A DNA stretch of 64,000 nucleotides from Trebouxia sp. TZW2008 (lineage: Eukaryota; Chlorophyta; Trebouxiophyceae; Trebouxiales; Trebouxiaceae): positions 1-64,000 of the forward strand of contig BDIU01000010.1 of NCBI GenBank assembly GCA_002118135.1, in the 5' to 3' direction. Position numbers and translations under genes: made by a program. This document shows positions 73 to 53,800 of this stretch, piece after piece. Under the pieces are notes generated by a model. It was not told the DNA's origin, ran no database searches, and saw only the letters and a list, made by a program, of their open reading frames with translations. Position 1 is the first letter of the stretch. Each line of letters begins with the position of its first letter.

Positions 73-3000
73 CCAGCTCAGGGCTGAGATCTGCTCCTCC
101 AGCTTCTCAGTAATGCCCTCTAGCGCAGCTTGCCTCTCTGGGCTCTCCAGCTGAGCATATACCTGCAAACAACACCATGCTGTCAAGCACAATAGCCAAA
201 GCTTGTTGTCATGCTTGCATAATGAATGCAATGTCTCACACAATCACAACACAACCAGCTCTGCATTCACCTGCAAACTAAGCAATGGTGTCAAGCACAA
301 GGCCAAAACCTGATCTGCTGCCTTATCTACATCATAAGCGCATTGCCTCTTGACAAGGGTCACAATTGCTCATGCACATTTTGCAACTTGCGCACAGCTC
401 GCAACTGCATGTGGGCAGATAGCACAAAACCAACTTCACCAGCAAGGCTGTGTCAGATGAGGGATGAGTGTATTCAGAGCTGCAAGCAGGAAAGAAAATT
501 CTACGCTGTCATGCGCCATGAAGGGAACTTCTGTCTATTGAAGCAGACCAAATCGCTGCTTGAAGAGCAGCCATCAGCATACAAGCGTCTGCTTGCAGTG
601 CTGGTGTGCATGCTGGCAGTGACTGACACCCCCAGGTCTGTCTGCTGTGCATGCTATGCATCTTGCATAACACTCAAGCCAAGCAGTGCAAAGCAGCATA
701 GGCTACACACCTCACGAAGCTCTTCTTCAGTTGCTTGAATCCTCTCTCTCATGTTGCGCTTGTCAGCAACAGCTGCCGCTGTGTTGATGTTCTTGTATAG
801 CAGCAGGGCCTCCTCAGCTGTAGCTGCCCTGCCCTCGACCTCAACTGCCATTTTCTGAGTCTTCATCAGCTGCCAGCTGACAAAGCCTTTCTCCTGTAGC
901 AGCATGCCAAACAGCACTCACTCACTGAGTGACACACAAGATTTGCAATGAAGGGCAATCCTTTGACATGCTATGCAGCGCAACGCACAATTGCTTGGCA
1001 AGTATACTTGGATGTGAGGACAGCACGCATGCTACCGTTTTGCCATGTAAGCACAAAGCTGTACGCAGGTGTCAAAGTGCTGTTGCCATAATGCCATCAT
1101 CCCTCACAGATGCTGTAGAACAGCGGCTGCTTGCTGTTTAAGCCGGCAAAAAGTGGAGCGACAAGTGAGGAGTGAAACGCCTAACTAACACAGCTATAAG
1201 CAAACAATCCTGGAGTGGTAGGGCCATGCAGTGAAAGCGGTCTTACCTCTCTGAGAGCATTCAGCTGCCTCTCATACTCGTCTGTGATGCCCTCCATGGC
1301 TGCTCGCCTCTCAGTTGAGTCCAACATCAGATCCGCCTGCACCCCAGCCACACCCAGTCATGTCATGCAAGCCTAGTCACACACACACTGTACAGAAAAG
1401 TATCAGTAAGCCAGCATGTGGTACAAAAGCAGTGAAGGTATGAGATATCAAGATACTCTCCAGGAGGGCTCCTCTCACAATGTCATCCAGCATCAAGTCT
1501 GCCTGCAGTCTAGCCACAATCAATCAGCTTAAGCAGGCCTGGTCACACACATTGTATAGAACAGTCTACGTAAGCCAGCATGTGTTCCAAAAGCGTGGTT
1601 GTGAACTGGCTTCTAAACAAGCAGCACACACGCATTGAAACGTTCCCACCAGCTTTTCATGCATGAATCAACTTTGTGCACATTGCAGTACCTGATCCAG
1701 CAGGTCTTGGGTGTACGACAGTTGAGCCTTGAGGTCCTCCTCCCTGACCTTGTAAGCCTCCTCAATGGTCTGTATCTCAGCCACTCTGTCAGCCTCCACC
1801 TGGGCCAAACCAGCAGTGGCAGCACTTGCTTGAGGGTTTGATTGCTGCAGCCGTGCCGTCGAGTCCTTCAAGAACTGCAGATGTAAGCAGAATTCAGTCT
1901 CAATAGCAGATTTGTGCATGATTGGAACATTCACAATACGCTTCAGAGTCATGTGCAAATGCTGTAGTACCAGCAACTGAGAAGCTGTGTATAGCAGACG
2001 CAATACAGAAAAGAACGCCCTGTACCTTCACCTATGGCATTTTTGGTGTTCAAAATGCCCACCAGAAGGCACTGATTGCAACTGGTGCAATGATGCTGCT
2101 ACAGCTTCTGAAGCGTCAGTGTTTGTAATTCTGCAAGGATACTGGGCTTTGGACACACAACACAGGATTCTGTAAAGAGCACTGAGTGTTGAACATGCTC
2201 ACCTCAACAACAGGACTGTTGCTAGCCAGGACCACCTGCTTGTTGTTATTGTCTACACTCCCCTCAGTAGTCAACTCCTGCAAGCAAGCCAATCTTGTCT
2301 GGTCGTGGGTTGCTGGGTCCCTATAAGCTGCATGACTTTGTGTACCAGCAAGCAAAGCATGTATGACTTGAAGTGACTAGGTCCCAGTCAAGCTCAGTCA
2401 TAGCGACATAGCGGCAGCATGGCACGTGACATCTGCAGTGACAGGACTCAATGAGATGTGGGCAAAAGCTGCGACGCAGATGCTGATGCAGAGTCTTGTA
2501 TCAGTGCGCACCCTTGTGGGTCCTTTGACAATTACGCTCTTGATCTTTGATTGGGCTTGACTTGTGTACACTGTGGCTGGCCTGGTGTCCATCTGCCACC
2601 TCATGTGCATACTCTCCAGGCTCTGGTTACACAGCCTGTCTTCCAACTCCACTGGGTCAGAGTCCCTCTCATGCTGCTGAGCGCTCCACCCTTTGTAAGT
2701 CTCAGCCAGAGGACTGAAGTCCTGTACGACGACATCAGTGTGAGTGGCTGTAAGCACACTGAGTTCAAAAGATTTGCAGATTCTTGTGGTGTGTAACTAT
2801 GCATGTGTGAGCTGCAGCACAAGAAATGCAGCGCCTTACCTGGCCCATAGCAGCTTGGAAGTGTGCTGCTTTGCTGTGCTCAGCGCCACTTGTCATAGGC
2901 ACCTGCAGCAAGGTCAAGAGTCCAATGAGTGTATGCTATCAGAGCTGTGGAAAACATTTACTGGGAATATTGCTGGTTTTTCTGCAGCAGACGCGCTTGC

Positions 3001-3710: not shown

Positions 3711-3745
3711 GATACATGGGTATACCGCTATGCAGATTGTTAACG

Positions 3746-4009: not shown

Positions 4010-4011
4010 TG

Positions 4012-4661: not shown

Positions 4662-6242
4662 CTAACGGTCACGGACATTGCGACCTACGCTGTCTGCACA
4701 CAAGCAAATGAGCATTGTTGCTGTCACCTGAGGCTCGCCAGAGCTGTTGATGTCAGCAACAAGCCTTCCAAAGCCTGCACCAGGGTCTGTTCCCAATGGG
4801 GCTGCAATATTGCTTCTGCCTTGCACGTCTGCTGCTTTGCGCCGGAAGACAGCAACCTGCATTGACATGGCCCTGTGACCAGAGAGCAGCACCCGACTAC
4901 TTAGGGCAACAGCTGTATATCGCTGATGCCGTTGTAACTGTGACCTCTGGGCTTCCCCCTGTGACGCAATCTTGTGAATGCAAGCTGCTCCATAACATGC
5001 ATCTTTCAGTGCCCAAGGCTGAGTCCTACGGCCAGTTGCAGTGAATTGAAGCAATCGATATGCCAGGCACGGCCTTTTGGAGTGAACTGTGACGCCAACA
5101 CGAAGCACGAGTCTGTGCGGTATCATGCACTTCATGATAGAGGTTCCTGGGACGTTGTCAGCAGCATGCACCTCACATAAAACTGCAGCATACTATCAGC
5201 TGATGATGAACCCTGACATGTTCAAGCTTACTCACCTAAGAGGCAGAACCCTCTTGGCCCTGAATCTCCAGCGTGGCAAGGGCCCTGCCCTCCTGCATGG
5301 CCCTATCTGGCCCCCAAAACTGGACTGATACTGACATGCATATCAGACAACGACAATGATGAGCTTCACCTGAGAGGCAAAACCGAGGTCTTGCCCCTGC
5401 ATGCCCAGCGTGGCAATGGCCCTGCCCTCCTGCATGGCCCTACCGGCCCCCCAGAACTTGACTGAGTAGCCATGCTTCTCGGCCAGGCCCTGACCCCATT
5501 GCTGGAACTCCTGGCGGCTCCTGTACACCAGAAGCAAGCTGTTACAGTGGTCACCACAGCAGTCACTACAGTGCTCTCTGCAGTAGTCACTAATGGCTAG
5601 CAGGACAGAAAGCAAGACTCCACTGCTGAAACTCCTGGCAGGTCCTCTACATCAGCAGCAAGCTGTTACAGCAGTCACTACATCACTGCAGCAATCACTG
5701 CAGCAGTCTGAATGGGAGTCACCATGACACTTGCTACAAAATTCATCTTAATGATCACAGCGGTGGTCATCCCACCAATCACAAAATGCTCTTCTGGCAG
5801 GCAGTGCAGGCAGCCTGTCTCCATTCAAAGCAGTGACTCTTCATACACCATGCAAATGGTCACACACGGCCAGGCTGTTAGTCTACATCGGATGCACTTG
5901 TGAAACATTCGGTTGCTTCCGTCAAAAGCCTCAGCAAAACCTGCTTGGCCTGACTGTTCTAAACTATGACAAGTGTTACGCAACTTGTTGGGCAGCAGAG
6001 CGCTGTAATGTAAACAGCTGTCAGGGTATATAATATCGTGTGTCCTCTGAACATTGACTAATGCATGCATGGGAGACCAATCGCCTGTGCCAGACGTCAT
6101 CACAATCTTATCAAACACAACGGTGCAATTTTTCTACACCACCTTTGCTGAGGACTAACGCTCTTGCAGTGCCTTGACGTTACAAGCACGTCCCAATTGG
6201 TGCAGCACTGCATTAGCTGCGCCACTCAATGCAATGCTGCTG

Positions 6243-6317
<75 letters not shown>

Positions 6318-9300
6318 ATGAAGCTGGTCAGACACAACCATGCAGCATTGGCCATACCACTCAAAGCGATGATCAGTGGTATGCAGCTTGTTTGGCAGCA
6401 GAGCTTTTCCCAGCTGATGCAGCACTGCATTGGCACAACTGCATTGGCACAACTGCATTGGCATAGCTGCATTGGCATAGCTGCATTGGCACAACTGCAT
6501 TGACACAACTGCATTGGCATAGCTGCATTGACACAACTGCATTGGCATAGCTGCATTGGCACAACTGCGTTGACATGACTGCATTGGCCTCACCATTCAA
6601 AGCGGTGATCAGTGTTGCGTAGCTTGTTGGGCAGTAGAGCGATGCCAAGCTGTTGCAGCACTGCATTGTACTCTTTGTTGGGGGTGGTGACTACAAGCAG
6701 CTTGGGTTGCAGGCCCCCCAGTAGGGAGGGGCCCAGGCTCTGCAGGGGGGTGGGGTCCAAGTGCTCCACCACCTCGACCAAGGCTGCTGCTTCGATGCCA
6801 GCTAGCCCGCCCCAATAGCCTGCAATCACGATGATGTCTTGCAGCAGTCACAGCAGACCTTGAAAGTCAAGCATGGCTCTTGAGACAAACTCCAGCCAAG
6901 TTGGTGCAGCACTGCATTGTACTCTATGTTGGGGTGATGACATGGAGCATGCTGCTGCTTCAATGCCAGCCAGCCCACCCCAGTAGCCTGCACTCGCAAC
7001 AACAACTCAAAGCTGCAGTCAGAGATACTCGGCATCTTCTGAAGTGCCCGCAGCAAGGCTCTCATCCCGTGCCAAATCAATACACCCTAAGCTCTGCAAT
7101 CACAAGCAAGGCTTCAGTCGCAGTCGCGCTGGATGCCACCAGTCACTGTCTGCTTTCAAGACCATGTTCGAGTCAGGTATGGCTGTTGTGACTGTCTCCA
7201 CCAAGACTGCCGCTACAATGCCAGCCAGCCCTTCCCAGTGGCCCATACCCACAAGCGTGGCTGCATTTGAACGCACTGGGAAGAATCATGGAGCCTCGCT
7301 TGCCAGCATGTGTACGATGTTGATTCATGACCAGAGACGCTTACAGCTGCAGTCACAGCAATGCCACACTTCCCTGTTGGCTGTTGAAACCAGTAGCTGT
7401 TACATTTTTAGCTAGCCCAGAACCAACTTGATGGCTTGCAACAGTCACAGCAGATTTTGCAAGTCAAGCATGCTGGTCTGACTGCCTGCAGCAAGGCTTC
7501 ATGAAAGCCAGCTAAGCCATGTTGATAATCTGCAATGGCAAAGGTGTTTTACAGCATCTACAGCAGGCTTGCAAGTCAAGCGCGCTGTTGACACTCATTG
7601 CCCGCAGCAAGGCTGCTGCATCAGGATTAGCCAGCAGTCCCTGACTCTTCACAAGCGGTATATATACCGGTGCCATATCCCTCATCAAGCCCCACATGGA
7701 CTGTCAAACCACCTTGCCTTCATTCTGCGTTCTTAGGTGCCAGAGCATGTCATTTTCACTCAATTCCTTCATTCAAAACGCATGCTAGACAGGCTCGGCA
7801 GGCCCAGCTAGGTATGTACTGGAGAACTGGAGCTGCCAGATTGCCCGTTTCAGAAGCCTGTCGCCAGCAAAGCAGTTCAAGGCTATCTTCACAGCTTGAC
7901 CCACCAGGAATTGACCTGAGCCTGACAGATTGATGCCTTCGTGTATTTGCTTGTGCTTAGCATTGGATCACAGCTTGACCCATCACGAGATTAAGCTGAG
8001 CATGCCAGAATGTTGGCGTTGTGCACTTCCTTGTGCTCAGCATGTGCTCACAGCTGACTCACCAGGAAGTTGACCTGAGCATGACAGAATGACGGCTTGT
8101 GCATATGCTTGTGCTCAACATGTGACTGATGTTGCTGCACGTGGACACCTGCACTTCTGCTTTACAATCATCAACAATTAGCTTCATGCTTTGCAGCAAA
8201 GGCTAACATGAAAGGCAGCTGTTGATGAATGTGAAGGAGATATGCAAAGGACCGCAATCAGCAAGATTGACCTCATGCTGTAGCCCTTAGCAGAGGCACA
8301 AAGCAGTGAAGGTGACAGGCTGCGACTTGCTGGCTTTGCAAGCTATCACATGAACCTGTACCTGTTGCTGTTTTGTAGATTGCATGAAAATGATGGGGCG
8401 CTAAATCAAGAAAAGTTCTCTTTTTGTCGCTCATTCCTCTTTGCAATCCTTAGCGGTGTCAACAACTTTAACATCCAGGAGAGGGGCCCTACGGTGCTTC
8501 AGAGATAACTTTTCACATTCTTCGAACTGATCTAGTATAGCTCAATTACTAAACATTTTTAATTATCTTTGCAGATGAAAAGATGAGTTTTGCCTCATTT
8601 TCTCTATTGCTGATCTCATGGCAACAGCGTCAGGTATAGCTAGCTATGCTTACCTTTGCCATGGCAAACAGTAAAACCAAACAAAGTATGACATTTTGCT
8701 GCGGCAGTGGAGTTGATGTTCACCAATTCAGCAGATCACAACAGACGCAAATGCACTTACCAGATCCCATATGTCCACACATCACTGTGTGGATACGTAC
8801 ATACACAGCTGCTTGCTGCAGACTCAGTCTGTCAGCATGTGCCACCTGTCCAATGTTGCAGCTTGTGTGTGACTGCTGACATTATGCAGTGAGAAGAAGA
8901 CAATACTAACATGTTTGCGTCTATACAGGAGCGTCTGTGAGCAGACATAGCACAAGACATGCAACGCTATACTGACGATGTCAGATGACACCACATGCCT
9001 GAGTCTGCAGCGCTTGCAGTGGCAATGTCTCCATGGTACAGCTGGCTTCCAGGTAGCTGCTTGCTTGCTGGACCCCCACTAGGCTTTGAGGGGCCCTCAG
9101 CCAGACCCCCCCACTGCTGCAGGGGGTCGCTCAGGGGGTCGTCAGCCTGACGGTATGCTCCCAGTAGCTTACGCCCTGCCCTTGTAACAGCTTCTGCGGT
9201 GATGTCAACCCCAATCTGCATGCCCAATTTGATGACTAAGCCATTGTGACAATATGCACAAGCAAACCATCCCTTGTGACTCTTCTCCATTGATGTCGAC

Positions 9301-12300
9301 CCCAGTCTGCATGCCCAAATCAATGGCAGAGCCATTGTGATCAAAAATTACATGCTGTGCACAAATTAAACAGCCCTTGTGACAGCTTCTCGAATGTCGT
9401 CAACTCCAATGCTCATGCCCATGTGGAGAGAGTGAAGCCATTCACATTGAACCCATTAGTTGATGACTGAATTATTGCCATGACAAAGCAAATGCACAAG
9501 CAAATCAGCATGACCAGTACAATTGGGAATCCTCATACATTCACTCTGCTGGCGTGGACAACACCATCATGTGTTGCTTTTGTGGGGCTGCTGAATGTTG
9601 TCGCTTTTGTGGGGCTGCTGAATGTCGTCGCTTTTGCGGGGCTGCTGAACATTGTCGCTTTTGTGGGGCTGCTGCATGTTGTTGCTTGCATGCAAGGCAC
9701 AACGTGCAGCTAAAAAAGCTGAGCATGGCCAATAGTTCCTAAAGTCATGTGACTGCTGCTGTGTCACACAGCATGGTCTTACCAGTTGCTTGAGGGCTGG
9801 ACAGGATTGGGATCGGATGAGGTGCTCCAGTAGTTTGCCCTCCCCACAGCCCAGATCCACCAGCCTCTGAGCCCCACTCTGCTCCATCACACCTACAGCA
9901 TGCACCTGTCATGCTCTGAGACATTTATTGTCTTTATCCACAGAAAGCTGCTGTCATGCTTCAACAAGCTTGCAAACAGGGGATTCAGAGAATGACACTG
10001 TACCTGTCAGGAGTTATGCCTGGTCAGAAGCATGCAACAAGCGCTGTCGTGCACGCTGGCACTGATGGCCTAGTCATGCGCTTTCCTTTCAACAGCAGCA
10101 ATCAAACACAAGACACAGCACAAACAGTCCTGGCAAGCCCTGCAAAGCATTCACGCTTCTTGGAAAAGACAGACAGCATCCAAATCTACAGTAGCATCAT
10201 CAAAGCTGACTGTGCCTTGCTGAGCCAAGTCAACTTGATGCCACAGCACCACTTGGCAAGCAATGGGTCACACACACCTAGCGCTCATGCCAGCACCTGT
10301 GCCCATTGATATTCTGGTTCAAGCAATGGCTATGTAACAGGAGTTACCTGCCACCAAGGCATGCCTCTGAAGGGCCAAGGGGGGGTCAAAGAGGGCTGCA
10401 GCGGGGGCTGCAGGGGCGGGGTATCTGTGACCAAGGTAGGTGAGGCGCAGCTCACAGTGCAGCCGAGGGCAGGAGCCAGCCAGTAGCTGAGGCCCTCCTA
10501 CTGGCAGATGCACTGGCATTACTGCTTTGCCACCTGTTCCCAACCTGTACACCAGAGTTACCATTTTGTCAGCGTGATGTACAAAAGGGCAAACAAGTCA
10601 GAGACTGCCTGGACACAAACAATTGACGCTGGTTCTTTCCCCGTACAGAAAGAATACCACTTGTCAATGTTGTGTGCTACATTCCAACTCAAACAAGCGC
10701 ATGGCCTGAATAGGCACAGTTGCCCAGTCTGCACCTGTTTCCGAGCTGTTTACAAAAATGTCAAACTGTCGGTCTGATGGTCTTTCTGGCAAACAATCAT
10801 GGAATGATCTGACAAATGCGGTTTTGGGACCTGTTGCTAGCATGTACGCAAAACTGCTGCCAATCTGTGCACATAACGAGCCTGCTGTTCTTGGTAACAG
10901 CAAGTACTGTTTGTTGCTTGCTGCTTGCCTTTGTTTGCATATGCTCCTACGTCACTCATGACTGGCAAAGAACTCAGAGACTGGTCCAAAACACACAGAT
11001 GGCACATGAAGAGTGTATTGCAGGGATACGAAGCAGCCCACAGTACGGTCATCAATACACTTTCTGGGAGAAGGCATACATGAATGCATTTGTTGACATG
11101 AAGCAGCCCCATGCAATACAAGCATTGTACTTCAGGCAGAGCAGTGACAGTTGACCTGTAGACTGCATCTGAAATTTCAGGGATCACTCCTGCCCCGCCC
11201 CATTCAAATCTGAACATGCTGCACTGTTCCACTGTCTCATCATCAGCGTTTGCTTTTGGAGGACCTGCTGGCGCAAACATGGCGTGTTAGATCATGCCTT
11301 CAACAATGATGATGGTTTACCAGCATGCTGTGCCAAGGCGGCGCATGTTGTCTTTTGTAGCTTACACAAAGTGAGCAGTGGCACTGAGCTTTTGAGATGA
11401 CTGGACCTTGCCATGTGCACTTCAACATGGCAGAAGATATGAGTGACGTTATGCTGATAGGACTTTCTAAACGCATGCTAGACAGGCTCAGCAGGCCCAG
11501 GTAGGTGCGTACTGGAGCAATCAGCAGGAGACGGGACTTTGTCTCACACTTATGCATGCAACTTGTGGCAACATGGCAACACATGCTAAAGATTGCAGTA
11601 GCTCCAGCTTCAGCGTGTCATGCCAAGCAGCATTGCTACGTCTCACTGAGGTCTGCATTTGTGATCTCCATGTTTTCGGTAGCTTCAACATTGACGCTTT
11701 CACTATCTTTCTCAGTAGCTTCTTCAGTAGCTTCCTCAGGTCCATCAGGTGCCAAAATCTTCTCAGCATCACCCTTGAGCACCAGCTGATATTCCACCTT
11801 AACCACATTCCCAATCTCTGGCATGCTGTTCTCAACATCACCCTGGTGATGCACTATCAGAGCCTGATTGCTGTTGCTGTCTATGTCAGTGTGCATGGCT
11901 GCTGCATTAGCTTTCTCTGGTTGAGACACAGTCAAAATTGCAAGGACTGCATGCTGCAGTTGATGCACCATATCCAGTGCTGCTTGCTGCTTAGCTATGT
12001 TGGCTTCTCCAGTGTGCTGTGCTGAGGCTGTCAAGGTCTGTCCAGTGCCTTGCAGCATCACCTGGCACAGAACGTCTATCTCAATATAGGTTTTATACAT
12101 CAGAGACATCCCAGACACATTCTGAAACAGTAGCTAGGTGCGTGTGGCCCATCAAAGGATGTTCTGAGCAATTGTATGCCACAAAAGTCCTGGCCAAGCT
12201 TGCCTTTGGACATGGACAAGTGTTGCAGATGACGATGCTAGTTGATGCTACAGACTGTGCAGCTGCTACTGCGTCAATTGATCGACATTCCAAACCCAAA

Positions 12301-15300
12301 ATGCTTTGCTGCTCCGGGTCGAAATACTGCGATGAACATGCATTACACCATAGTAAAGCAAGGAAGCTGATGTTGCCTGTAGCTTGCAGCTGTGTACTGT
12401 CTCATCGCCAGCTTCATGACTGTCCTGCTGCATCTGAAGCTGTGCAGCAAGGCTGTGTTGGCCAACACTAGCCTTTGCTTTGGGAGGGTTGGCAGGCTGG
12501 GTGGCCAGGACTGAGGTGGGTGGGGGCGCAGGGGGGTTGACTTTGCACAGCCCTGGGGTGCACAGGTCTGACAGCATGCGCCAGGGGTCATGACCGTACC
12601 AAGCTTTGGGGTGCCTGCAATCATGCCACAGGTGATCTTCAATGACTTGAACTCAGGAGGCTGGGGGGGGGGGGGGGGGGGGGNNGCAGGGGGCATGTAT
12701 TATGCTCATCTGACAAGCCATGCTAGGCTGTGCTAGCTTGGGCATGCTATGAGTTGCAGTGCCTTGCAACAAGCACACATCCACAGCAATGCAGAAAGTG
12801 ATGCGCGTGCAGTCATGGACCCATTTCACAATTCAAGGTAACATTCAGTCAATTGAACATCTCTGTCTTTGACCATTGTTGGTGCCATGGTTTGCCTGCC
12901 TGATCAGTAGCTGGCCAAACCAACAACACCTGTATGAAGCATGCTCACCTGAAGACCGTGGGAATCCTGGTGACCAGGGCATGCAATCCTCTATTGACAT
13001 GCTCCACCTCAGGTAGCAGACCACGCACCCACTCCCAAAACAAGTCCAGGGTGAAGTCACTGCTCAACACCACAGCCGGCACCCGCCATGCATTTGATCG
13101 CTATTGCACTGTAGTGTGGCTGAGCCATCATGCCACACAACTAAAGACCTTTACACAGTGGGCCCACCTGAAGAATGTGGGCACCCTGGTGAGTCAGGCA
13201 TCCATTTCTCTGTTCACATGCTCCACTTCTGGCAGCAGACCATTCACCCAATCCCAAAACAAGTCCAGGGTGAAGTCACTGCTCAACAGCACAGACGGCA
13301 CCAGCCGTGCATTTGATTGCGATTGAACTGTGGTGTTGGTGTGGCTGAGCCATCATGCCACGCAACTAAAGACCTTTACACAGTGGGCCCACCTGAAGAC
13401 TGTGGGAAGTCTGGTGACTAAGGCATTCATTCCTCTGTTCACATGCTCCACTTCTGGCAGCAGACCATGCACCCACTCCCAGAACAGCTCCAGGGTGAAG
13501 TCACTGCTGAACACCACAGCCGGCACCAGCCAGGCGCAGTGGCGAATTTTGGTGTAGGTCAGAAGGGCATTCCCAAACACAGGCCTGCCAGCTAGCCAAC
13601 TGGCCCTTGCATTTAAGGCTGTTGGGTCAGTGCTCTGGGTCGTGCTGGTGTACATTGCTGGTGGGTTGATGGCTTCAAAGGGCAAAAGAGGGGTATTGGG
13701 TTTGTTGTCTGCTGGTGGGTTTGTTCCTTCAGAGGGAACAACAGGCGTGTTGGATTTGGTATTGGCTGCGGGGTCTGAGATGGTTTCAGTGCCTGGCTGA
13801 GGTGTGACTGGCCCCTCTGCTGGTTTCTCTTCTGACATGTGCTGACTGGTGTTTACTGGCTCCCCAAGGGCCTCTCTGAAGGCTTCCTGTGGCGCAAGTC
13901 AACAGGTTGTGATCAATCAACAGCTGCTCAATACTGGCTTGACTGGCTTGTGATAGCTTGCATGCATAAAGCTTGAATGGCATACTATGTCGAGGCACTC
14001 TTTGCATGCCTTGGAACTGCTGAAGCTCGCAGATAATGATGTCTCATTGTGCATGACCCCAGCTGGGTCATTGCTGACGTGCAAACTATTATAGTGTATT
14101 CTGAGATACATTGTAAAGGCACAAGGACGCAGCCAGGCAGAGGTGGCAGCTGCATTTGATGTGTGTGTATTCCGGGATGAAAACGCAAGGCATCCCATGC
14201 CTCAGCTGGTGCTGATGCTCAAACACTCACCAGCAGGGGTTGTGGCTTGTCTGTTGCTTTGTATCCTGGCAAGCGAGGTATATGCACAACCTTGCCAGGC
14301 TTCTCCCAGAACAGCAGGTCATGGGCCTCAACCCCTAGGGCCTTGGCAGTGGCATGCCAGGGGTCTGTCTTCCCGCCAATTTCTAGTGTTGTGACTGGTG
14401 CTCTACATGCCAATTTGCAGTATTGTGATTGGTGCTTTACGTGCAAAATAGATGGTGATGTGATGACTTGTAGCAAAGTTTTGAATACCTAGCTGTATGG
14501 CCAACTACCTACAGGCCATACAGCTATGGCCTATAGCTGTATGGCCATAGCCACAGCCATACATTAACATTACCAACAAGCTGCTTCAATAGTTGCTTCA
14601 GGGTAGGAAAAATGCTTGCAAGCAGCTTGAATGAATTAAAGCCAAGCACGCAGTCTTGCATGTGGTGGGCTGAGCATAACCAGTGGTTGCAGACACATTA
14701 GCAGTGTTGCCATGCATTGATACAGCTGCAGCCACAAAAGAATGTTCACATCCTCAATCCATGTGAGGTAGCTTCCCGCACCTGATGTCGACAGGCAGGA
14801 GGACGCCTCCATGGGCTGACCCAGATGCCAGTTGCAAGCCGATCTCAACAGCTTTGGTGGCTTTACAAAAGCCTTGCTCTGCTGCTGATAGTCTCTGGTA
14901 CTTGATTTTCCGTTTGATGTATTTGCCATCCTCACTCAAAGCCAGAACATCATCTGCAGTCAGAAAGGCTATTGGTTGCAATGCGACGCACGCTTTAGAC
15001 ATCCTGCATTCTGCAGTGGTCAGTGTACACATGCAGTATGCACTATACCAACCATGCCATGGCATCAATCAGCCTGCTGTGCATTAACAAGAGTAAGCAG
15101 GTGCTGTTTTTGGCATTTATTGCATGCCTAGTAGGGTCAGCGTCCATACTTTACAATACCCACTGTTGCGAATACTCATGTTTGCTTACCTGTGGCTGAG
15201 CTCTGTTGGTTGAGTTTTGTTGTGACGATTTGCAGCGCCTGTCCAGGATGCTGAGCAGCCTCTGGCTCATATTCCTTCAGCCAGGCTCGCACAGACCTGG

Positions 15301-18344: not shown

Positions 18345-21300
18345 ATGCCACCAAAGAAGGTATCGGGCATAAGCTATTAGCTGCTCGCAATTTATAGCTA
18401 GTGGATCCTACAAAGGCCAAAGCAAAACAAATGAAAGGCCTGCAGGGCAAGGGGAAGTCCAAGAAGCCTCCTGAGACTGAGGAGGAGAAGGCTGCTCGGC
18501 TTGAGGCTGAAGCAGTTGCTGCTAAAGAGGCAGCCAGAATGCGAGAAGAAGCTGCAAGGTAAGATATCCTCAAGCCTGCATGCTCTGTGATGATGAACAA
18601 TGTCACATATGCTCAACACAGCATTTGCATGCTGCACCTGCTTCACCCGTAAATGCCAATTGTAAACAAAGTTAAGATTTGTCTCTTGCATGCAGATTGT
18701 CAATGCTGGAGAAGCAGCAGCATGAACAGGATCATGGCCGCATGAATGCAATCAAGATTCACAACCAGTGGCGGCGCATAATGCGTATGGCAAAGACTGA
18801 GGAGCTCAAACAGGACATTGAGATCCTCAGCCAAAGTTTTGATCGCAATGTTGACCGCAAAGATGCTCTGATTCAGGTAAACAGCTGCCAGCCTATCTCA
18901 AATGCCAGGTCAACTTGTGCTGTATACCTTGCCAAGTGTTCCTATCCTTTGCCCACCACAATCAAACAGATCTCACGCAGCAGAAGCAGGTTTGGGTATC
19001 AGGATCTCTGGGTTGTACAGGCCCTTGACAGAGATCTAGAGGATGCAGAAGAGCAGTATGGCACAGCCTTGAGAGGGCACCTGCAGGTCATAGACAGCCT
19101 GCAGAACATGCAGTACGCACGCATGAAGGCTATGCAGGAGCAATTTCAGGCAAATCTCAAGGTCAGTTGCAAGGCTACCTCTATATCTGCATCTGGCATC
19201 TGATGTCATCTGCAGACCAACAGCGTTACAAGAAGTTTGTCAGCTGTACTGCTTGGCATTTCAAGTACTCCTGCAGAAGCTGTGACAGCACTCGCTCTGA
19301 AAGCAACAAACGAAGCCCTCAAATGCCCAAAGCCTGTGTGCTGCTTATTGAGCTTTGGTAGTGCACACTCTGTTGGACCAAGAACAGGCGCACTGCACAC
19401 ACTGTAACATCACAAGGGAAAGAAAGGCTTCTGTTGTGGTGTGCAGGCTTTGCAGGAAGAGTTTGACACTGAGCGTACAGACATGACATCCAGTCACAAC
19501 AGGCAGAAGAAGGAGATGGCCGACCTCATGACAGCCATGGAGGGAGAGTTTGCTGAGGCTGACTCAGAGGCGAGGCAGGAGTTTGAGGCGGCTAGGGAGG
19601 AGATCCGAAACAGAAGCAGTGAGGAGTACAATGTGCTGAAGATCAGCCTAGAAGGGCAGATTGAGGAGCTGGAACGCACTTTTGAGGCTGCCCATCAGGC
19701 GTATCTGCAAAACACAGGAGCCAGGGCAACAGCCTTCCAGACCCTGACAACCAATGACGCCGCGGCGGCGCGAGTCATTGAGCAGCGCATGAAGAAGCTG
19801 GTCCAGATGCAGGTGTGCCCTTGACAGCATCTGCTCAAGCTTGAGCCTCCATGCATGCCTCTGGCGTGACGTAATATGCCTGCACTGCTTGTAGCCTGTA
19901 TACAACGCTATGAAGAAGCTTCAACACAAGACAGTAGTCCATAGCCTGGTTGCCTGTGCTGTGAATGTCCCCTCAGCCTTTGGCGTGCAGCGTCCAAGGC
20001 AGCAGGCTTGCATTTGCTGCCACTGAGAATCAATGCTCAAAACACATAGGCAGTCAGTGAGCAGCCTCTATTCAGCATGCCCAGCATTGGCTAGGGTTGA
20101 CAGCACTGTCAAGCTTGTCCAATGCCAACGCTAAGATGCACCTGAAGCCAGCTCATGCACCCACATAAGTGCAGCCGCAGCAATTTTTCCTGCAGTCGAG
20201 TCGGTTCAAGTCAGTGGCGCACAATCTTGCCAGCACAGTCGTGTTCCAGAGGCAATTGCTGCTGTGAACATGGTTTGTGATCTCTGTGCAGTGTGGCTGC
20301 GTGAGTCAGCTCCAATGGTCAAGCTCGATGGCCTTTGGGGAAACACATCCTAAGGTTTGGGTAACGCCTCATCACTCAAATTGGTCTGTCACGCAGGATT
20401 CATTGAGTCAGTGGCGCACCAAGATTGGCAGCACTGGGCGGGAGTGGGAGGAGCGGCAGCGCGCCCTGCAGGCTGAGAAGGACATCATGGCGCGTCACTA
20501 CTCTGCCCTCAAGGCCGCAATGGAGCAGTTCAGGGCCCAGCAAAACACCCGCCTTAAGCACCTCTCTGCCCATAGGCGAGTAGCTCAGATGTCTGACATC
20601 TGGCGGCGTACCAACACTCTGTGTGCCTTTCTGCTTGCTTGTTGCAACAGTACAGTTGCGTTGTATCGCATGACAAAAAGACATAGTAGACAGAGCCCCG
20701 GAGCAGAGATGTGTTTTGTTTTGACCATACTCCCTTGAAAGTGCTGCTGTTCATGATTAAGTCCTTGTGTCTGTTGTCATAAGCAGCCCCACATTAAGGT
20801 CTTAAGGATTCCCGGTTTCATTGACACCAAGAATATGAGCAGCTGTATACATGAAAGCACAACAATTCAGCATGTGTGGAATGCTGTTCAGCATGATATT
20901 GACAAAACCCAGCATCATTCGATCTTTGCTGATTTGATTGTGTATGTATTGCAGTGCCAATGCCAACATGGAGCTGCAGAAGAAGCTGGCGTCAGCTGAG
21001 CGGATTCTGAAGCTGGGGGAGTTGTGTCGGAAGCTGGAGACAGAGCAGGAGAAGGTGCTGCCCTTCTGCAGCCCTGAGCAAGCCCTAGGGTTGCAGCCCT
21101 CCCACAACCAGGAGGAACCCCGCCAGGCAGAGGCGGAGCACAGTGGCAGTAGCCGCCATGCTCACGATGATGCAGACCACTCGGTATGATATCAGTTTTT
21201 TGCTGTTTCTCATGATATCATGCGCAGTGTATGTACCTGACAGGGCCAGCAGGGCCATGAATTTCAGTAGCAAATGTGTCAATGATGATGACATGCCACT

Positions 21301-22899: not shown

Positions 22900-22929
22900 T
22901 TGCATCAAGAGTTGCAGCCCTGATGAGTC

Positions 22930-22987
22930 ATCAACCATTAAAGCAGTCAGGCCACAGCTTGTGGACATCAACTCCTTCACCAGCTGA
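22930..22987 (+). repeat. Ghost copy of the DRC2 C-terminus and stop
   Basis: Just past the DRC2 stop, the sequence encodes [17 protein letters not shown] and TGA, duplicating [17 protein letters not shown] and TGA of the real end (22849-22899). Confidence 0.9.
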
Positions 22988-26060: not shown

Positions 26061-26067
26061 AGGACTA

Positions 26068-30981: not shown

Positions 30982-33900
30982 CTACCTGAAAGGGCTGTGG
31001 CAGCCCTGTAGTAGGGACGTGATAGCTGCCTTGATGTTGGGATAGGCATGCTCTCTGCTGGGCTTCCCCTTGTTGACTGTCATGCAAACCTGCTGCCTTA
31101 GAATGGCTGGGCCGTCTTTAGGCAGCCTGTCCCGCAGCTCTGACAGCCACCTAAGCAGGCTGATGACGGCAGCTCCCACTGTGAAGGCGTGCATGCCAAA
31201 GTCCACGCAGCCGGACTCGCCATTGGTGTGGACGGTCAGTCGGAAGTGGCCTTGCCTACAGGCTGTCTGGAACACCTGTAGACACAATGTGTTATGAAAC
31301 AGGCGTACTGGCATCTAAGCTTACAGCCACCCGAGCAGGTCAAACCATTTGTCAACAAGCACTTTCCATGTGAAATGCCTTGTCCTTAGGCAGCCTGTCA
31401 TGCAGCTGTGACAACAAGAATTGCACACAGAAGTCACTTGAGGCATGCATGTCAACTTGTGCAGTGCGCCCTCAGCCCAGTCATGTGGGCAGGCTGATGA
31501 CGGCAGCTCCCGCTGTAAAGGCATGCCAAAGTTGACATTGCCAGACTCGCCATCAAGGCTGGCGAGGCAGAAGTGGCCTTGTCCATAGGCTGTCTGAAAC
31601 ACTTGCAGGCAGGATCAGTTGTGAAACAAGCGTACGATCATCTGAACTGAGAGCCCCCTGAGTGAGCTAATGATGGCAGCAGGCCCACAAATGCAGCTGA
31701 CAATGAGCTGAGGTGGTCATGCTTTGCTGTTAGGTGGAGCCAAATACCTGACCAGCTGTAGCTTGAGCCCACACCACTCTAATGCTTCACAGGAAAGAGA
31801 GAAGGCAATGATGGAGTAGATGCCAGGATGGCTCAAACAGCCCTTGGGCCATGCACTCGAGAGCCCTCCTTGGAGGCTGATTGTCACTACTGTCAGTAAA
31901 GCTTTCAAAACATTGTTGTCAGGGTTGTTTGGAGGCAACTTTAGCCTTTTCAAGCAGGCCCACAGGACTTCACTGATCAGCAGGTAAATGCTGATGCAGA
32001 TGATGATGTCAGTGAAGCAGCCTACCTGAACAGCCTTGGCTTGAGCCCAAACCACCCCAGTGTTCCATAGCACCCCAACCACAGTGTTATACACCACACT
32101 ATCCGGCCTGCAGTTGTTGTGCTTCATCTGCTCAAAGGCTGCTAGGGCTCTTCGCCACTGGTCGCCCTTCTCGTAGGCCAAAATGAGACCGCCGTATGTG
32201 ACTGAGTCTGGCTTGCAGCCCTTGGCTTGCATCTGCTCAAATAGCTCTGCAGCTTTCTCCCATTGAGCGCCTGCAGTGTCCAGAAGCTTTCAGTTCATGA
32301 CAGCACTTATCTTTGGTGTACACTTCATGAACTCAAATCCTGTCTTCTGAAGAGTAATTTCAGTACATGCAGGGTGTACGTGCAAGGTATGCAACAGGGA
32401 GCTGACAGAATGGTCACTTGATCAAACTGGCTTAATGCCCTCCGCAATTCTTCACAAATGGTGTTGTTGTGACTCCTCACATGAGGGCATGCACCCTAAA
32501 ATGCCGCTCAAACAGCAACGCTGTCTGGACTGATGAAATGCAAACCATACTTGCTGTGAAGGTCAGAATGTTAAGGCCTTGCACAGCATGAAGTCTCTTC
32601 AGGCATTAGCTGCTGCAACTGCATCTTGACCACCAGCCAAATTTCAAGGGCTTTCTAAACCTCTTCAGCTTACTTCCTTGAGTTCAGGCTGGCTGTCAAA
32701 ATACAATTAAGGGCAAACAGACCGCCTTGCAAGAACACAGGTCTGCAGGTTCAGAACAAGCTTCCATGTGTGCAGGAAGGGGCAGGACGTGCTAAAGATG
32801 CCATTGCTTTACCCTATAGACCCTTGAAACCCTATTGAAAGTGTCAAAGTACAGGCATGTCTCTTTGCAAGGTGAACTGCTGATGCCACAGCCCACTACT
32901 GTCAAGAGGGCAGCTAGCCTGGCCATGAGACAGAAGCAACACAAACAATGACAGGTGTCTTGACACCTGATGCGAAAACTGTAACTGCTGTCTGCCATAA
33001 AGCGAGAAGTCCCTGTCAAGAGCCCAACACCTGCAGACAAAGCAATAGGACCAGCAACATAACCAATGATGGTGACAATGCTCTTCATTGGCAGCTGGGA
33101 CTAGGACGCTGTAGCATGCTGCTGTCAAGCCTTGAAAGCTTACACAAGTTGCCTCAAGTCACACTGCACAAATCTGCCAGCAACAAATCAGCCACATCTC
33201 GGCTTATCATAAGCAAACATGGGCATTATGAACAAAGATGCTGCGACACCTGAGCAGATCGACCCCCAGCATGCATAAACGCAGAACGAGAGACTTGTGT
33301 GCAAGCAACAGATCTTGCCATGTCAACAGCTGAAAAGCTGTTGGCAGCTGTTGCACATCCTGCAAGTGAGCCCAGTCAGCACCCTGTCACAAACCCAGAC
33401 AGCATACATGATACCGCTTTTGCGTGCATGCTATTTGAGCTCTGTGCAGGGTGCTGACTTGACTTTACATAGGGCTGCAAAGCTTATAACAGCATCTCAG
33501 CAATCTGCAGAGATATAACAGCTGCGCACAAGTGATAGCTGCAATAGCTCACATCATCGCTTCAGCAATTCGTAGAAAGCAACAGAAGCTTACAAGTAAT
33601 GGCTGCAGCAAGTCACTTCCAGCAATCAGGTGGGCCACAACATCAGCTGACACAGGGGAGCTCGAAGCCCTTGTAACAGCTACCAAGTTATCTGATTACT
33701 TGGATCCAGAAATTTGCAGATCAGCTGATGTTCTGGAGCAGATAACCCGTACCCTACATATACCCTGCTTCTGTATGTAACTAGCACAGCCATAGACCCT
33801 CACTAGCACGCATATAGAACATAATCAAAGGATGACATGCAACAAGAAGAAGGTGGACGTTGAGCACAGGAAACAATGAGAAGCTGTAAATGTGACCACA

Positions 33901-36900
33901 TTGGGCTTCATCAGTGACCCTTACAAATTTTGACACAGCACTGAACAGAACATTTGGGATGTTGGAGCATAATTATTAAGGAAAGAAGAAGGCATACCTT
34001 GAGCACAGGCAGCTATGAGGGAGTTGTAGGTAACCACGTTTGGTTTGCAGCCTTCCCGGTGCATCTCTCCAAACAGGTCCAGGGCGAGCTCCCACCTGCC
34101 TGCCTTCTCGCAGGCGCTGATCAGGCTGCTGTAGGTGATCACATTCCGCTCACACCCTCGTCTGATCTGCAGCACAGGCAAAACCCTTGATTCTTCCCAT
34201 TGTTTCCTCAATTTTGATTAATTAGGCTTACTGTAGGTGATGACATCACGATCACAGCCTTGCCTGATCTGCAACACAGGTAACAACCCTGAGTCAAGGC
34301 CTGCCTGCTTTGTCTGACAATGGCTTACTAGGACAGAACACGTCAGCTCTGCTACCTTGCATGGTTTTGCTGACCCTTGTCTTGCAGCAGCAGCAGTATG
34401 AAAGGCCACAATCTACTCTCAGCAGCACAAGCATAAGTCTGGGTGCATTGGCTCAGACAAAGCAGAAAGCAGACAGGCTTGAATTTGTGTTCCTCTTGCT
34501 CTACAAAATTGCTTTTATGATAGAAGGTGTACATCATGTACACAGTGTTCTCTTGGAAATGCTGGATACACAATACCACAGCCCTTCAACAGGGTCAAGC
34601 TCCTGTCGTCACACAGCACTCTCACTACACAAGATCTGCAGTGCCAGCGCAAACAGCGCTCTCACCATGTCATCAAAGATCTGCAGAGCTCTGTCTAGCT
34701 GCCCGTTCTTGCCATAAGCTGATATGAGGGCTGTATAGGTTGTGGCAGTGGGCAGTGCACCGGCAGTGAGCATACGCTCATACACTTTGAGCGCCTCCTG
34801 TGCCTGCCCGCTCATGTTGCAGGCAATGATGACGGTGTTATAGGTTCTGATCTCTGGCTCTATGCCCTGCAGTAGCAAAAGAGGATCTGAGCCCCACACA
34901 CACAGCACCTGAGACAAGTAATCTGATAGTGGTGTGTTGTGCTTTGCAATGCGATGCAGCCACTTGCTGAGCTTTTATGCGCATGTGCTGACAAGCAAGC
35001 TATCACACACACAAAGGGGCTGATTGCAGACTGTAATGCGACACCATGGCAACAACTGGGATGAGGCATGCCTGATTATGTGTGACCTGTGCAGAGTGGC
35101 GCTGACGACAATGTCCTGACATGCACAAGAATCGTCATAACAAGGCTTGTTGCAAACGCTGCAGCAGGCCCACACTGCATGATTGTATGCATGCAAGATG
35201 CATACTGAGCCAGCCAGACTATGCACAGCCGTCCTGACTCAAAGTTCAGCACTGCAAGTCTGAAAAGTGTGTGTGCTGCTGGTGTCCACGCATGCCAGCA
35301 AGTACAGGCAGGGGTTTAGCAATTCGTCAAATGCAGACATCTTAGTAAAGGCACTGACCTGATGTTCCAGGGCGTCCAGCACTTTGACAGCCTCCTCCCA
35401 CTGGCCAGTCTTGCCATACACGTCTATGAGGGTGTTGTAGGTAACAAGGTTGGGGGTGCAGCTGTCTGACAGCAGCTGCTTGTACACGTCTAGAGCCAGG
35501 TCCAGCTCGTTTGCTTTTATACACACATTCATGAGGGCGCTGTAGGTATGTACATTGCAGGCAATGCCTCGGCTGCGCATTTCTGCTACTAGTTCAAGTG
35601 CCCTTCGTAGCTGTTGATGGGAGCCGCACTGGGAGATCATTGTTGTGTAGGTGTATACATCACAGAGGCAGATCAGCTCATGGCCGTCTTCAAGGCCTCT
35701 GAGCCAGTCAAAGATCTCCATTGCTCGCTTGCCATGTCCGCTTTTGGCAAGCTCCTTCAGCAGCGCTGCCAAAGCCCCACTGCATAACAATAAGACAATA
35801 TTCATGACAATTTCTAGCATACATTGCTACACGTGTGTAACATATGAGTCCTGTCTTGCCAGGTGGCCTTGTCTTGAGCATAACAGAACAGACTCCTGAT
35901 GTTCAACTGTTGGGAGTCAGACAAAACAATGTCATTGCAGATCTGCAGGTACAATGTATCACATAATCGACACACCATGACTCTTGTTGTAGCGACCCAC
36001 TGAGCAGCGTACAGACAGTGTCCAGTTGACAGTCCTCTGGCACTGATGCCTCACTGTGACTGCAAAATAGGGTCCTGACTGGCTGATATAAGGAGTGTAT
36101 AAAGCGCAAAAGTGCACAGCGGGGTATGTGCCTGTGGCCGTATCTCGCAACATGTGGGGAAACTGCCCATGGGTTCCAGCTGGGTGCAGTGCTAATGTAA
36201 CATCTGTTTGTGGTGAAATGCTGACGCACCTGTCTAGGTAATACAAGCCCTCACTGACTGCTGCTACTGCACTGGCATCAGGTGCCAACCCACGGACAAT
36301 CTGCAACATGTCCTCCACACTACTATCTGGAAAGTTGCTATCACCATCGCCTAGTTTCTGTCCCCGGCCAACTTTAGTTACTTCGGCCCAAAGCCTGCGG
36401 TAATGGCCTTGTCCCCGTCTGGGGTCTGTCAGACCTCGGCCACCTCGGAATGCTCCCCGACCTCGAGCTGATGCTGGGCCTCTCCCTCTCGTATTTGGGC
36501 TGGAAGGACTGTATGCGCCGTCTTTGAGCTCGCCGTCGCGAAACAGAGCGCGAGGCTTGCCTCTGTTTGCCGGACCCCCTCGGTTTGGAGTATGCCAACA
36601 ACGGCTGCCGTTCACAGGTGCCGAGCTGGGGGATCGTCTTGCCAGATCAGCAAGCGGGACGCTGTTGCAGAAGGCAGCTTGATTGATGTGCGACGCTGCC
36701 TCAGGCGACCTTAGCAGGTGCAATCCGCACAGATCCATGCTGTGAGCTTTTGACATGGCGTGCGCTGACTGTCGCAGGTGCATGTCGGACATGAAACTGT
36801 CGAGGTCGCCCAGACTATACGCGTTGTCCAATGCAGGCGGGTACTCCGGCACAGGGACGCTGCGCGGAGGCGAAGCTAAGGTGCTTGCCATGTCAGGTCT

Positions 36901-50810: not shown

Positions 50811-53800
50811 ATGGCCAGATCTCGCAGCCGATCCAGGGATCGCCATCGCAGCTCGCACAGCCATCGCCAGGAGCATTCAGATAGAAGAAGAGACGATAGG
50901 TGTAGAGACTCGCACAGGCAAAGCACCAGGGACCGAGACAGGGAACGCTACAAGTCAGAAAGGCACAGCAGGCATGATGATGATCATACAAGTGATCATC
51001 GCAGGAGGTATTCTGCAGAAGAAAGGTGCTTTCGCAGTTTCACCCCACCATTGTTGCCTTGCTGCGGATCATTTAGAACCAAAACAGTATGCTTTCCATC
51101 ATCAGGTATCGAGAGGATGTTGGTGACCGAGAAGATGGAAGCAGGTGAGCTGACGCCCGCGCAGCATCATGCACAAACAAGCTTTGCTGTCCGGACCTGA
51201 GCAAGCATGGTGTTGAAAATGCCCACTGCCATCATCACATATGGTTGCTTTTCATGCAGAAAGCGTGCTGCTGAAGCGCCAGCACAATCAGAGGAGGAAG
51301 TCAAGCGGCAGAGATTGGCAAAGCTTGCAGCATGGAGACAGCAACAGAATGGCCCGCAAGTCAAAGCAGAAGAGCCCAGCAATCCGCCAGTGTTTGATGC
51401 TTTTGCTGACGATGATGACGAAGAGGATGAGAAGCCTATCAAGCATGAAGCCCAGTCAACTGCTTGGTAAGCTATACCTTTTGCCCCATTGCCTGTGACC
51501 CTTTCATCACATGCAACACACAGTGATGAGCCTATTGTTGTGCACATGAGGAGGACTTGGTACATTGAAGCTATGTTTGAAAGTTTAGACCAGCAAATCA
51601 GCAATGCATACTCTGAACTACAGGCACTTCTTATACCAGCGCCACCATGTTGCGTACATCACATGTTGCACTGCATCTCAGTATTGCACACTCTCATGAT
51701 TGTGCGTTTTGCACATTACACGTTCTGTATTGCACACCAAGTATCATGTACGGTGATTCACCAACTTTGCCCATTCTCAGGATGCCCTGGGAGGACCCAG
51801 CCACAGCCTTCAGATCAGCCAGTCACGTCATTCCTCCTGAGATTGCAGCCAAAAAGGCTGCAGCTGCTTTAGCAGAAGCACAAGCTGTCGCTGATCAAGC
51901 ACAGGTATCTCGCATGTTCTAAGCATGTCTTGATTCAGATTGTCGGTAGTGTACCATAGATGTTGCATCAACCCTGCGTTAGCTCAGGTGCTGAGCTGGT
52001 TGCGCTCTCACTTTCAAGTAATTTGGCACTCAGCATCAGACGTTTATGCTCAAGTGTCCTTGGTAATCGACGCTGCTGTCATGTCAAAATTTGCTGTATG
52101 TGCTGATCGCTCACATGCAGCATGGCATTTACATTCACCTCATGCATTCACCTCTAGCTGCCTATACAGCAAAGCATTCAAAGACAGTTCGACGAGCAAT
52201 ACCACACAGTCAAGTGAAGTCCTGCTGTTTCATTTCAATCACGACAAGGTCCAAGTTTCATGACATGTTCAAGTATCATGACATGTTCCAAGAGTCATGC
52301 TGTGTTGGGAACGTTGGGTCATGTTGGAAAACTCACGGCATGATTCAAGGTCCACAACGTGTTTCAAGGGTCATGACACGGTTCAAGTATCATGATGTGA
52401 TGGAAGTGTCGGGTCTTGTTGGAAGACTCACGACATGGTTCAAAGTCCACGCTGGTTCAAGGGTCATGACACGTTTCACGTATCATGATGTGATGGAAGT
52501 GTCAGGTCATGTTGCAGAATTGATGACATGGTCCATGACATGTCCCAAGGGTCATGACACTTCTGTTGCTGCAGGAAGATGATGATGTGGATCCCTTGGA
52601 CGCCTTCATGGATGCTGCTGTCAACCCAGAAGTGGCAGCAGCTGAAAAGGCAGAAGCAGCTCGCAAGGAGGAGCTACGCAAGCAACAAGCCAAGGCACTC
52701 GCGGTATGCTGCCTGCATTGCCATGTGTATCGTTTGAAGTGTTCGCGCACTGGTTGTATGCTGCCGTCTCCATATGTGCTGTCTGCATTCCCATGTGTAT
52801 TGTTAAAAGTGTTCGTGCACTGGTTGTATGCTGCCATCTCGATATGTGTTGTCACTGTTCATGCACTTGCCATATGCAGCCTCTATCTCAAATGTGTGAG
52901 GTGCACATGCACTCTGGCATAATGTGCCTACAATGCTGCAATGCATTTCAGATTCATCACCCGCTCAAACAGTTCAGTGAGAATGAGCTGTTTGTCATAC
53001 TTTGCGGTGTTCAGGCTACTATGTTGAATTCGCCTTTCCTAAATTGCAGTTTGAGTGCCACAGGCTCAAAGCAATGTGTGGCACATGTCTACAAGCATGC
53101 TTGGCGCTTGAGCCCTATGCTGCGCTGCAGCTGCAGACTGTTTGACCGAGTCATTGCAGCATCTCATGTGTCATGCAGAAAGGCAACTGGCAGGGCCATT
53201 CCAGGCATCGTGACATTATGAGCGTGCTTGCTTGCATGCAGGATGGCAAGCAGCCATGCCGGTCTTGAATCAACTGTGGGCTCCTGACAGGAAAAGTCGC
53301 CACTTCTGTTGGGGAACGAGTTCATTGCTTGGCGTACAATGCTAGTGTAAGGTGCCAACGCCATCACTAGGCTAATGCCATGACATTGAGAGCATGATGG
53401 CCTGCAGGATGGCAAGCAACCTGCCATTCCCAAACTGGATGAGCTCTTGGCTCCTGACAGTGACAGTGAAGAAGAGCCAGACCTTGAGCTGCAGCTGCCA
53501 GCCAACAAGGTGAAGTACATGGTGGGCCAAGGGGGCGACAAAATCAAGTACATCCAGCGCAAGACCAAGTGTCGGATACAGGTGACTGCGCTTTCTGCAG
53601 ATCAGACCTTTGCAGACAGCCTGTTGCCATGAAGTGACTGGTTGTGCACTTGCAGTGTAGGATTGTACTCGCTCTCGGAATCTTTTGGCGCTCATGTCAT
53701 CTGCATCAAATCAATACTATAGTCATTACTATGTCGTAAAGAGCGATGGAGTGCTACAAAAGCTTATCCCAGTCAGGGTTGAAGGCACTGCATTCCTGCA

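Follow-up and report, generated by a model that had tools for sequence, protein, structure and literature searches.

Diverged partial copies of exon ends in short-range direct-repeat arrays of a Trebouxia-like algal genome

Mutually exclusive duplicated exons leave extra exon sequence in the neighbouring intron, and introners, which form dispersed families, add short sequence of roughly nucleosome size to introns on a large scale. Gain of introns through tandem duplication is reportedly covered by Gao & Lynch 2009 and Hellsten et al. 2011, and patch-mediated short tandem duplication by Vaughn & Bennetzen 2014 and Schiml et al. 2016. Here we analyse a stretch of 64,000 nucleotides (hereafter the window), which forms the beginning of the 196 kb contig BDIU01000010.1, together with further samples of the same genome. 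An initial annotation of the window had described six genes carrying partial copies of their own exon ends in the adjacent intron or 3' flank. These copies and the direct-repeat arrays to which they belong are the subject of this study.

In rice, according to the available part of the study concerned, tandem duplications account for 70% of insertions at first and for 5% by 200 bp, and they are ascribed to patch repair (PMC7971508). Fill-in of staggered breaks by CST/Pol alpha-primase, followed by end-joining, is described in the accessible portions of two reports as a source of small direct duplications, the size of which is set by the overhang; it was seen at Cas9-induced nick pairs in cell lines, namely mouse embryonic stem cells in the second report (PMC8355091, PMC5730883). 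Published Trebouxia genomes have, in the sections at hand, sizes of 63-74 Mb and a guanine plus cytosine (GC) content of 50% (PMC11523091, PMC12712428). The genome sampled here (68.5 Mb in 527 contigs, about 50% GC) agrees with them in size and GC, suggesting that it belongs to a Trebouxia-like lichen alga. For a long LRR exon, one match reaches 94% identity, and the Trebouxia matches bearing a name (strains C0009, C0004 and C0006) lie at 39-44%. In the available main text of these two Trebouxia papers and of the Asterochloris genome paper the word 'tandem' occurs 0 times, and the latter, as far as accessible, mentions one array of 141-bp units, unique within that genome. Among the matches listed, no publication describes a comparable density of exon-end copies in an alga of this kind, subscription literature being mostly not covered.

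Direct-repeat arrays and the fate of detached exon copies

The genome was sampled in 20 stretches amounting to 254 kb, comprising the window and 19 further 10-kb stretches, which were picked via contig number and position and hence non-randomly; one of them (L013) lies on the window's own contig. Within the window, self-BLAST and Tandem Repeats Finder revealed local direct repeats at about 20 loci. At E<=1e-4, 18 loci covered 11.8% of its length, with 0 in its order-3 Markov shuffle. The E cut-off was 1e-3 or 1e-4 and the offset limit 260 to 1000 bp depending on the analysis, so that loci counts vary slightly. Over the 254 kb we detected 87 local direct-repeat arrays occupying 37,308 of 254,000 bases (14.7%), and again 0 in the shuffles (one per stretch), which excludes chance similarity as their origin. 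The share per stretch was uneven (none in L002, 43% in L020, 52% in L006), and the density refers to this one genome. That the window might be exceptional by chance, a doubt raised in the initial annotation itself, is ruled out by the arrays found across the further stretches. Its proposal of a general local duplication process, of which the exon copies are only the recognisable subset, is supported as a genome-wide process at the DNA level.

The offset between copies was mostly 60-200 bp (median 135) and did not exceed 200 bp in 79 of the 87 arrays. The main arrays of the window have offsets of about 70 to 225 bp, apart from some more distant pairs; the periods noticed initially were about 80-220 bp. 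Direct pairs of 14-mers numbered about 9 per 10-bp bin at 110-199 bp and about 2 at 200-249 bp, with lesser rises near 260 and 320 bp. Direct 14-mer pairs outnumbered inverted ones by 263 to 11 (about 24:1). BLAST yielded 201 direct and 14 inverted rows, 10 of the latter being self-matching palindromes and 4 non-palindromic pairs. A match elsewhere in the 254 kb sample was observed for only 4 of the 87 arrays, ruling out a transposon or introner family for most of them. Three stretches of the window, containing four arrays (two of them partly), had no genome match beyond themselves in a search that skips very common words. The copies within arrays are mostly 10-30% divergent.

Exons were predicted by a hidden Markov model (HMM) self-trained on the sample, for which long open reading frames plus a generic consensus of splice sites served as seed, and built without RNA. 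This model replaced an earlier one, which over-split exons. Its trained acceptor reads TGCAG/G, the TG of which was absent from the seed consensus, and the median lengths are 127 bp for exons and 279 bp for introns. Several detached copies, i.e. copies not joined to the exon body, were called as exons by the predictor. Furthermore, there is at least one error of frame: predicted exons between 30540 and 31025 conflict with the reading frame matched by the protein P0121. Frame errors push the codon-position counts given below toward no difference.

Of the 87 arrays, 61 enclose the end of an exon whose body extends beyond the array. The 64 exon ends concerned comprise 30 donors, 32 acceptors and 2 gene ends, and the similar numbers of donors and acceptors fit a process at the DNA level. 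In the alignments, copies upstream of an exon retain its acceptor side and those downstream its donor side, as had already been noted for the window. This rule is a matter of geometry: whichever copy is attached to the exon body is the exon, and the other falls in the intron or flank. Among the 61 exon/copy pairs, mismatch at codon positions 1, 2 and 3 was 0.146, 0.139 and 0.208, and 0.183 in the non-coding part. These values fit one constrained and one free copy.

A polarised three-copy test covered 25 exon ends with 2,008 coding and 1,480 non-coding sites. The exon-joined copy had 92 unique changes (24/23/45 by codon position) and the two detached copies had 362 (121/93/148), or, per coding site, 0.046 changes in the joined and 0.090 in each detached copy. 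For the non-coding part of these loci the counts were 113 in joined and 288 in detached copies (0.076 and 0.097 per site and copy). The exon-joined copy is constrained, and the detached copies drift at about the non-coding rate. (These per-site rates as well as the mean spacer z, the 21/20/44 tally and the neutral splice-dinucleotide expectation given below are hand arithmetic from program output.) Frameshifts were present in 23 of the 61 detached copies and new stops in 8. The splice dinucleotide was retained in 37 of 54 copies (17/25 donors, 20/29 acceptors); this share of 0.69 is not above neutral, as 0.73-0.83 would be expected from drift alone. None of the 87 arrays lies wholly within one exon (expected: 3.3-4.8), as purifying selection would give. 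The observation of exon-end copies is correct and broader than first claimed, and such ghost exons would in general be by-products without function.

Origin of the arrays

Repair or replication errors at the DNA level are suggested by the direct orientation of the copies, their 200-bp ceiling, the locus specificity of the units and the equal numbers of donors and acceptors. The genome carries a dense load of short-range direct duplications, and we consider it reasonably probable that these were caused by error-prone break repair of the patch-repair type, the exons being bystanders. Thereby paired nicks or staggered breaks would be repaired in an error-prone manner as in rice, and the distance between the breaks would set the 200-bp limit. 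If a duplicated segment spans the end of an exon, the joined copy stays under coding constraint and the detached copy drifts like intron or flank. Arrays of three or more copies may have arisen by later exchange between copies. CST-guided Pol alpha-primase fill-in is a candidate for the enzyme route.

Several results weigh against error-prone repair with exons as bystanders, and they are considered here together with the explanations they favour. The 47 arrays consisting of a single pair include 30 in which the copies are separated by a spacer of at least 25 bp, and this holds for all classes of identity (4/6 below 75%, 8/14 at 75-80%, 7/11 at 80-85%, 11/16 at >=85%). Head-to-tail duplication, simulated with point changes and small indels only, gave spacers in 28% of cases below 75% identity, 23% at 75-80%, 8% at 80-85% and 4% at 85-90%, and in 3% and 0% in the highest classes, above 90%. 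The geometry described initially as tandem is not strictly so, as many pairs have the form copy-spacer-copy. Compared with the sequence one offset away, only 3 of 31 spacers reached z >=2.7, and the mean z of about 0.5 indicates a faint overall homology. Either the outer parts of copies were eroded by large losses or overwriting, or many events were of a copy-and-insert kind. The latter would be a separate local process: through template switching in the course of replication or repair, about 25-130 bp of adjacent sequence would be copied and inserted, in direct orientation, no further than about 200 bp away. It would account for the prevalence of spaced copies among two-copy loci up to the class of at least 85% identity, which simulated head-to-tail duplication does not yield, and for the 28 of 31 spacers without clear homology at the array offset. 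However, regular arrays of three or more copies would require tandem duplication or unequal exchange, some spacers may retain old homology judging from the mean z, and large outer deletions or later overwriting, both beyond the scope of the simulation, could create false spacers. The strong direct bias also argues against inserts templated from either strand. We regard copy-and-insert as unlikely. Growth of a seed array would explain the direct orientation, the arrays of three or more copies and the locus-specific units, but it predicts neither the 200-bp ceiling nor the numerous two-copy spaced loci and is likewise regarded as unlikely. Young arrays are scarce (at least 90% identity in 6 of 87, none at 95% over 40 bp or more) and hence give no proof of present activity; young copies may have been collapsed in the assembly, or the duplication process may have slowed. 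The same scarcity and two-base N runs at 12684-12685, in L007 and in L008 could be taken as signs of an assembly artefact from misjoined haplotypes or reads, but with copies mostly 10-30% different and with differing fates of their coding and non-coding parts such an origin is extremely improbable.

The exon ends themselves are a further difficulty. The 61 exon-end arrays contrast with 34.7 (standard deviation 4.4) under circular shifts and 38.8 (standard deviation 4.6) for same-length placement outside arrays, i.e. about 1.6 times the random number, so that on the HMM gene models exon ends are struck above chance. The initial annotation, in which a count of duplications with a breakpoint in exons versus introns had been proposed, is incomplete in this respect (61 arrays vs 35-39). 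Counted more loosely, as arrays enclosing at least one predicted exon end, the figure is 70 of 87 vs 59.2, which is inflated by copies called as exons. If at least 44, 74 or 104 bp of exon are demanded outside the array, 56, 40 and 28 arrays are observed vs 31.3, 25.3 and 20.1 expected, the excess becoming weaker under stricter demands. Detection bias as the sole cause is rejected, since duplications placed at random in simulations, with only the exon-joined copy under constraint, reach a share of 0.474, or 0.501 with older events, compared to the observed 0.69 (60/87); the most similar arrays are at exon ends, too (18/25). Mutation directed to exon-intron junctions by chromatin, R-loops or co-transcriptional nicks would fit these figures, including the excess persisting at 44 and 74 bp, and the coding share of 0.40 within 30 bp outside arrays as against 0.16-0.25 at 100-300 bp. 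Outside arrays, however, the sampled sequence as a whole has a coding share of 0.326, and array ends are not clustered within 20 bp of splice sites (0.138 vs 0.137, all arrays); an exact tie of array ends to splice sites, hinted at by DRC2 and HEN1, failed over all arrays. In addition, the gene models come from a self-trained HMM with at least one wrong frame, and slower loss of exon-anchored arrays lies outside what the simulations covered. A mechanism directed to exon ends is possible, but targeting of junctions in this sense seems quite improbable to us. Distinctly unlikely is also a lineage-specific copy-paste process acting in the same orientation within 200 bp, often with a spacer, and starting preferentially at exon ends, by which much intron sequence would have been rebuilt from diverged copies of neighbouring exon ends. 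Alternatively, the copies might be maintained as alternative or decoy exons. The third-position excess in detached copies (121/93/148), the 21/20/44 changes by codon position at four window loci (gap columns counted as changes), the reverse pattern at L006 7682-7752 (9 changes in the joined, 1 in the detached copy) and single copies of coding appearance do not agree with free drift; in some copies the frame is open and most differences fall at third positions (6345-6432, 0/3/10; 28246-28379, 0/1/7; 30810-30923, 3/0/13). Pairs with both copies called coding in one frame show mismatches of 0.078/0.078/0.191, this class being selected by the coding model, and 37 of 54 copies retain the splice dinucleotide. 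A minority of detached copies may thus have been coding for a time. On the other hand, this retention lies under the drift expectation, the mismatch in the 61 pairs is 0.146/0.139/0.208 beside 0.183 in non-coding sequence, detached copies change at about the non-coding rate with 23 frameshifts and 8 new stops among the 61, and four related proteins have one copy per cyclin segment. Coding constraint on both copies was not found in general, although single loci may differ given the third-position excess. The reservoir of alternative or decoy exons suggested initially is for the most part not borne out, and maintenance of the copies as exons is very improbable. In all, the initial interpretation is partly supported; its duplication idea is broadly correct, but the excess at exon ends and the spaced copies still call for an explanation.

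Arrays and host genes in the window

Located by position, all six genes named in the initial annotation have copies, RS-KH-J a single weak one; the gene names coiled-coil, SMR and RS-KH-J are taken over from there. In the coiled-coil gene (array 1320..1594, minus strand), the acceptor end of the predicted exon 1247-1336 (copy 1320-1430) is accompanied by an upstream copy at 1486-1594 (offset 166, 77% identity), in which the TGCAG acceptor is retained. The predicted exon 5370-5520 (minus strand) has copies of both its ends. Its donor end has a downstream copy at 5232-5328 (array 5232..5465, offset 134, 84%) with the GTGA retained and a new stop inside, its acceptor end an upstream copy at 5616-5708 (array 5492..5708, offset 124, 78%). 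On the same strand, a cluster of short copies (6345-6432, 6895-6941, 6951-6995) is situated around the predicted exon 6594-6819 (5941..7472), and a period-92 array (9179..9421) at the acceptor end of the predicted exon 8999-9215 contains a frameshifted copy.

Arrays of similar period free of exon content are present as stated initially, at 7889..8124 (period 79, 3 copies, no further genome match found) and 52239..52560 (period 94); a 70-bp array of 2.1 copies at 52707..52853 is without exon content, too. Simple repeats comprise a perfect CA run of 36 units (6244-6316), a 14-bp repeat with about 12 copies (6424-6588) and a 27-bp repeat with about 4 copies (9572-9687). A 53-bp direct repeat of 91% identity (7772-7824 and 11465-11517) has its copies 3.7 kb apart, well above the usual 200-bp range. 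A sequence of 1.2 kb occurs twice in opposite orientation near both ends of the window (2535-3695 and 62852-64000, 79% identity) and is probably a dispersed repeat.

The HEN1-like gene is designated by a Hen1 La-motif match under the cut-off and a double-stranded RNA-binding domain over the cut-off. The final 143 bp of its exon 13393-13886, including the donor, have two downstream copies (array 12943..13535, minus strand). The one at 12949-13091 (87%) is open in frame, the other at about 13165-13312 (89%) contains a stop. A run of exactly two N is located near this array (12684-12685), as also at L007 3823-3824 and L008 8632-8633; these may be scaffold joins.

The DRC2 gene (18431-22857, plus strand) is confirmed by the exons flanking the array exon 20955-21183 on both sides, this exon itself having no Pfam match. 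The final 57 bp of the predicted exon together with intron sequence are present in five copies at 21127..21852, one of them strongly diverged. Their spacing is about 150-174 bp, and the last copy terminates at a donor-like GT. A second array (22829..22987) consists of the donor end of the predicted exon 22621-22857 and a frameshifted downstream copy (offset 84, 79%). DRC2, which is named for the dynein regulatory complex of motile cilia, is thus encoded in an apparent lichen alga.

PPR-SMR and the cyclin-like gene, initially treated as separate, are probably one PPR-cyclin gene (26321-36891, minus strand), because their exons are colinear with single proteins: in tblastn, P0124 (Ostreobium quekettii, partial) matches colinearly between a PPR exon at 32127 and the final cyclin exon at 26372, and P0121 does so across the later part. 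The PPR assignment is based on a Pfam match, and the cyclin assignment on the Pfam accessions PF02984 and PF00134 listed for the related proteins, which we take to be cyclin families. Every duplicated cyclin segment occurs once in each of four proteins akin to the cyclin part (P0121, P0122, P0124 and P0127), which places the extra copies outside the shared protein. The acceptor end of the last exon (26321-26580) has upstream copies at 26629-26739 and 26801-26912 (array 26478..26912), both with the acceptor still present. The start of the predicted exon 27832-28011, with an acceptor placed by eye near 28033, is followed upstream by a copy at about 28100-28193 with a deletion and another at 28246-28379, after which a stop occurs (array 27924..28379). 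At 30528..31109, the exon end 30988-31101, lying inside the P0121 match 31194-30988, has downstream copies at 30810-30923 and 30641-30754, and P0121 matches the exon end and both copies. Frameshifted upstream copies accompany the start of the predicted exon 31090-31275 (copy 31489-31662, array 31155..31662, offset 334, 75%) and, in the PPR part, the acceptor end of the predicted exon 33998-34166 (array 34120..34290, offset 101, 81%).

On the plus strand, a period-78 array (26073..26313) at the donor end of the predicted exon 25992-26121 contains a copy with frameshift and stop. In the RS-KH-J gene (53226..53460, plus strand), the weak copy 53226-53290 of the start of the predicted exon 53408-53581 (E=0.007) has gaps in its reading frame. 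For the exons 51261-51464 and 54025-54333 there was no informative Pfam match. Scans of viral contigs revealed no related locus.

Significance and comparison with known systems

Should the density of the sample (87 arrays in 254 kb) apply throughout, the 68.5 Mb would contain roughly 23,000 arrays, this being a simple extrapolation from a non-random sample. A good part of the introns by length in such genomes, and perhaps some of their 'unclassified repeats', would then stem from local duplication, and thousands of exons would adjoin look-alike pieces. Exon-end copies are a source of false exons in gene annotation. Exons beside decaying copies of their own splice sites also offer a natural test bed for the disregard of decoys by the splicing machinery.

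Minisatellites are tandem arrays of a short unit at one locus; the alga has arrays of three or more copies, but 47 of its 87 loci are single pairs, most of them spaced. Exon sequence in the adjacent intron is shared with mutually exclusive exons, whereas those of the alga are partial copies and accumulate changes at about the rate of non-coding sequence. With introners the alga has the mass gain of short intron sequence in common; its units, however, are mostly unique to one locus. Intron gain by tandem duplication of exon segments, in the available part of its description (PMC4974935), resembles the present case in local duplication with splice signals, but the arrays of the alga strike existing introns. 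As the main route it is rejected, since 64 crossings in 61 arrays mean that an exon lies at both ends in at most 3 arrays.

The accessible text on CST/Pol alpha-primase fill-in would predict head-to-tail copies, whereas those of the alga are often spaced; on the available sections, neither this route nor patch repair predicts spacers. Measured against patch repair, the alga has direct local duplications with an upper size near 200 bp (79/87 offsets; 263:11), but 30 of its 47 two-copy loci are spaced rather than head-to-tail, later outer loss being beyond the scope of the simulation. In the part of the rice study at hand, the events are insertions relative to an outgroup (PMC7971508), whereas the alga contains diverged copies in 14.7% of its sampled bases, often spaced and at exon ends. 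The duplications ascribed to patch repair in rice are, within the same part of that study, like those of the alga in being direct, local, strongly enriched at 50-200 bp, dwindling by 200 bp and not made by transposons (PMC7971508).

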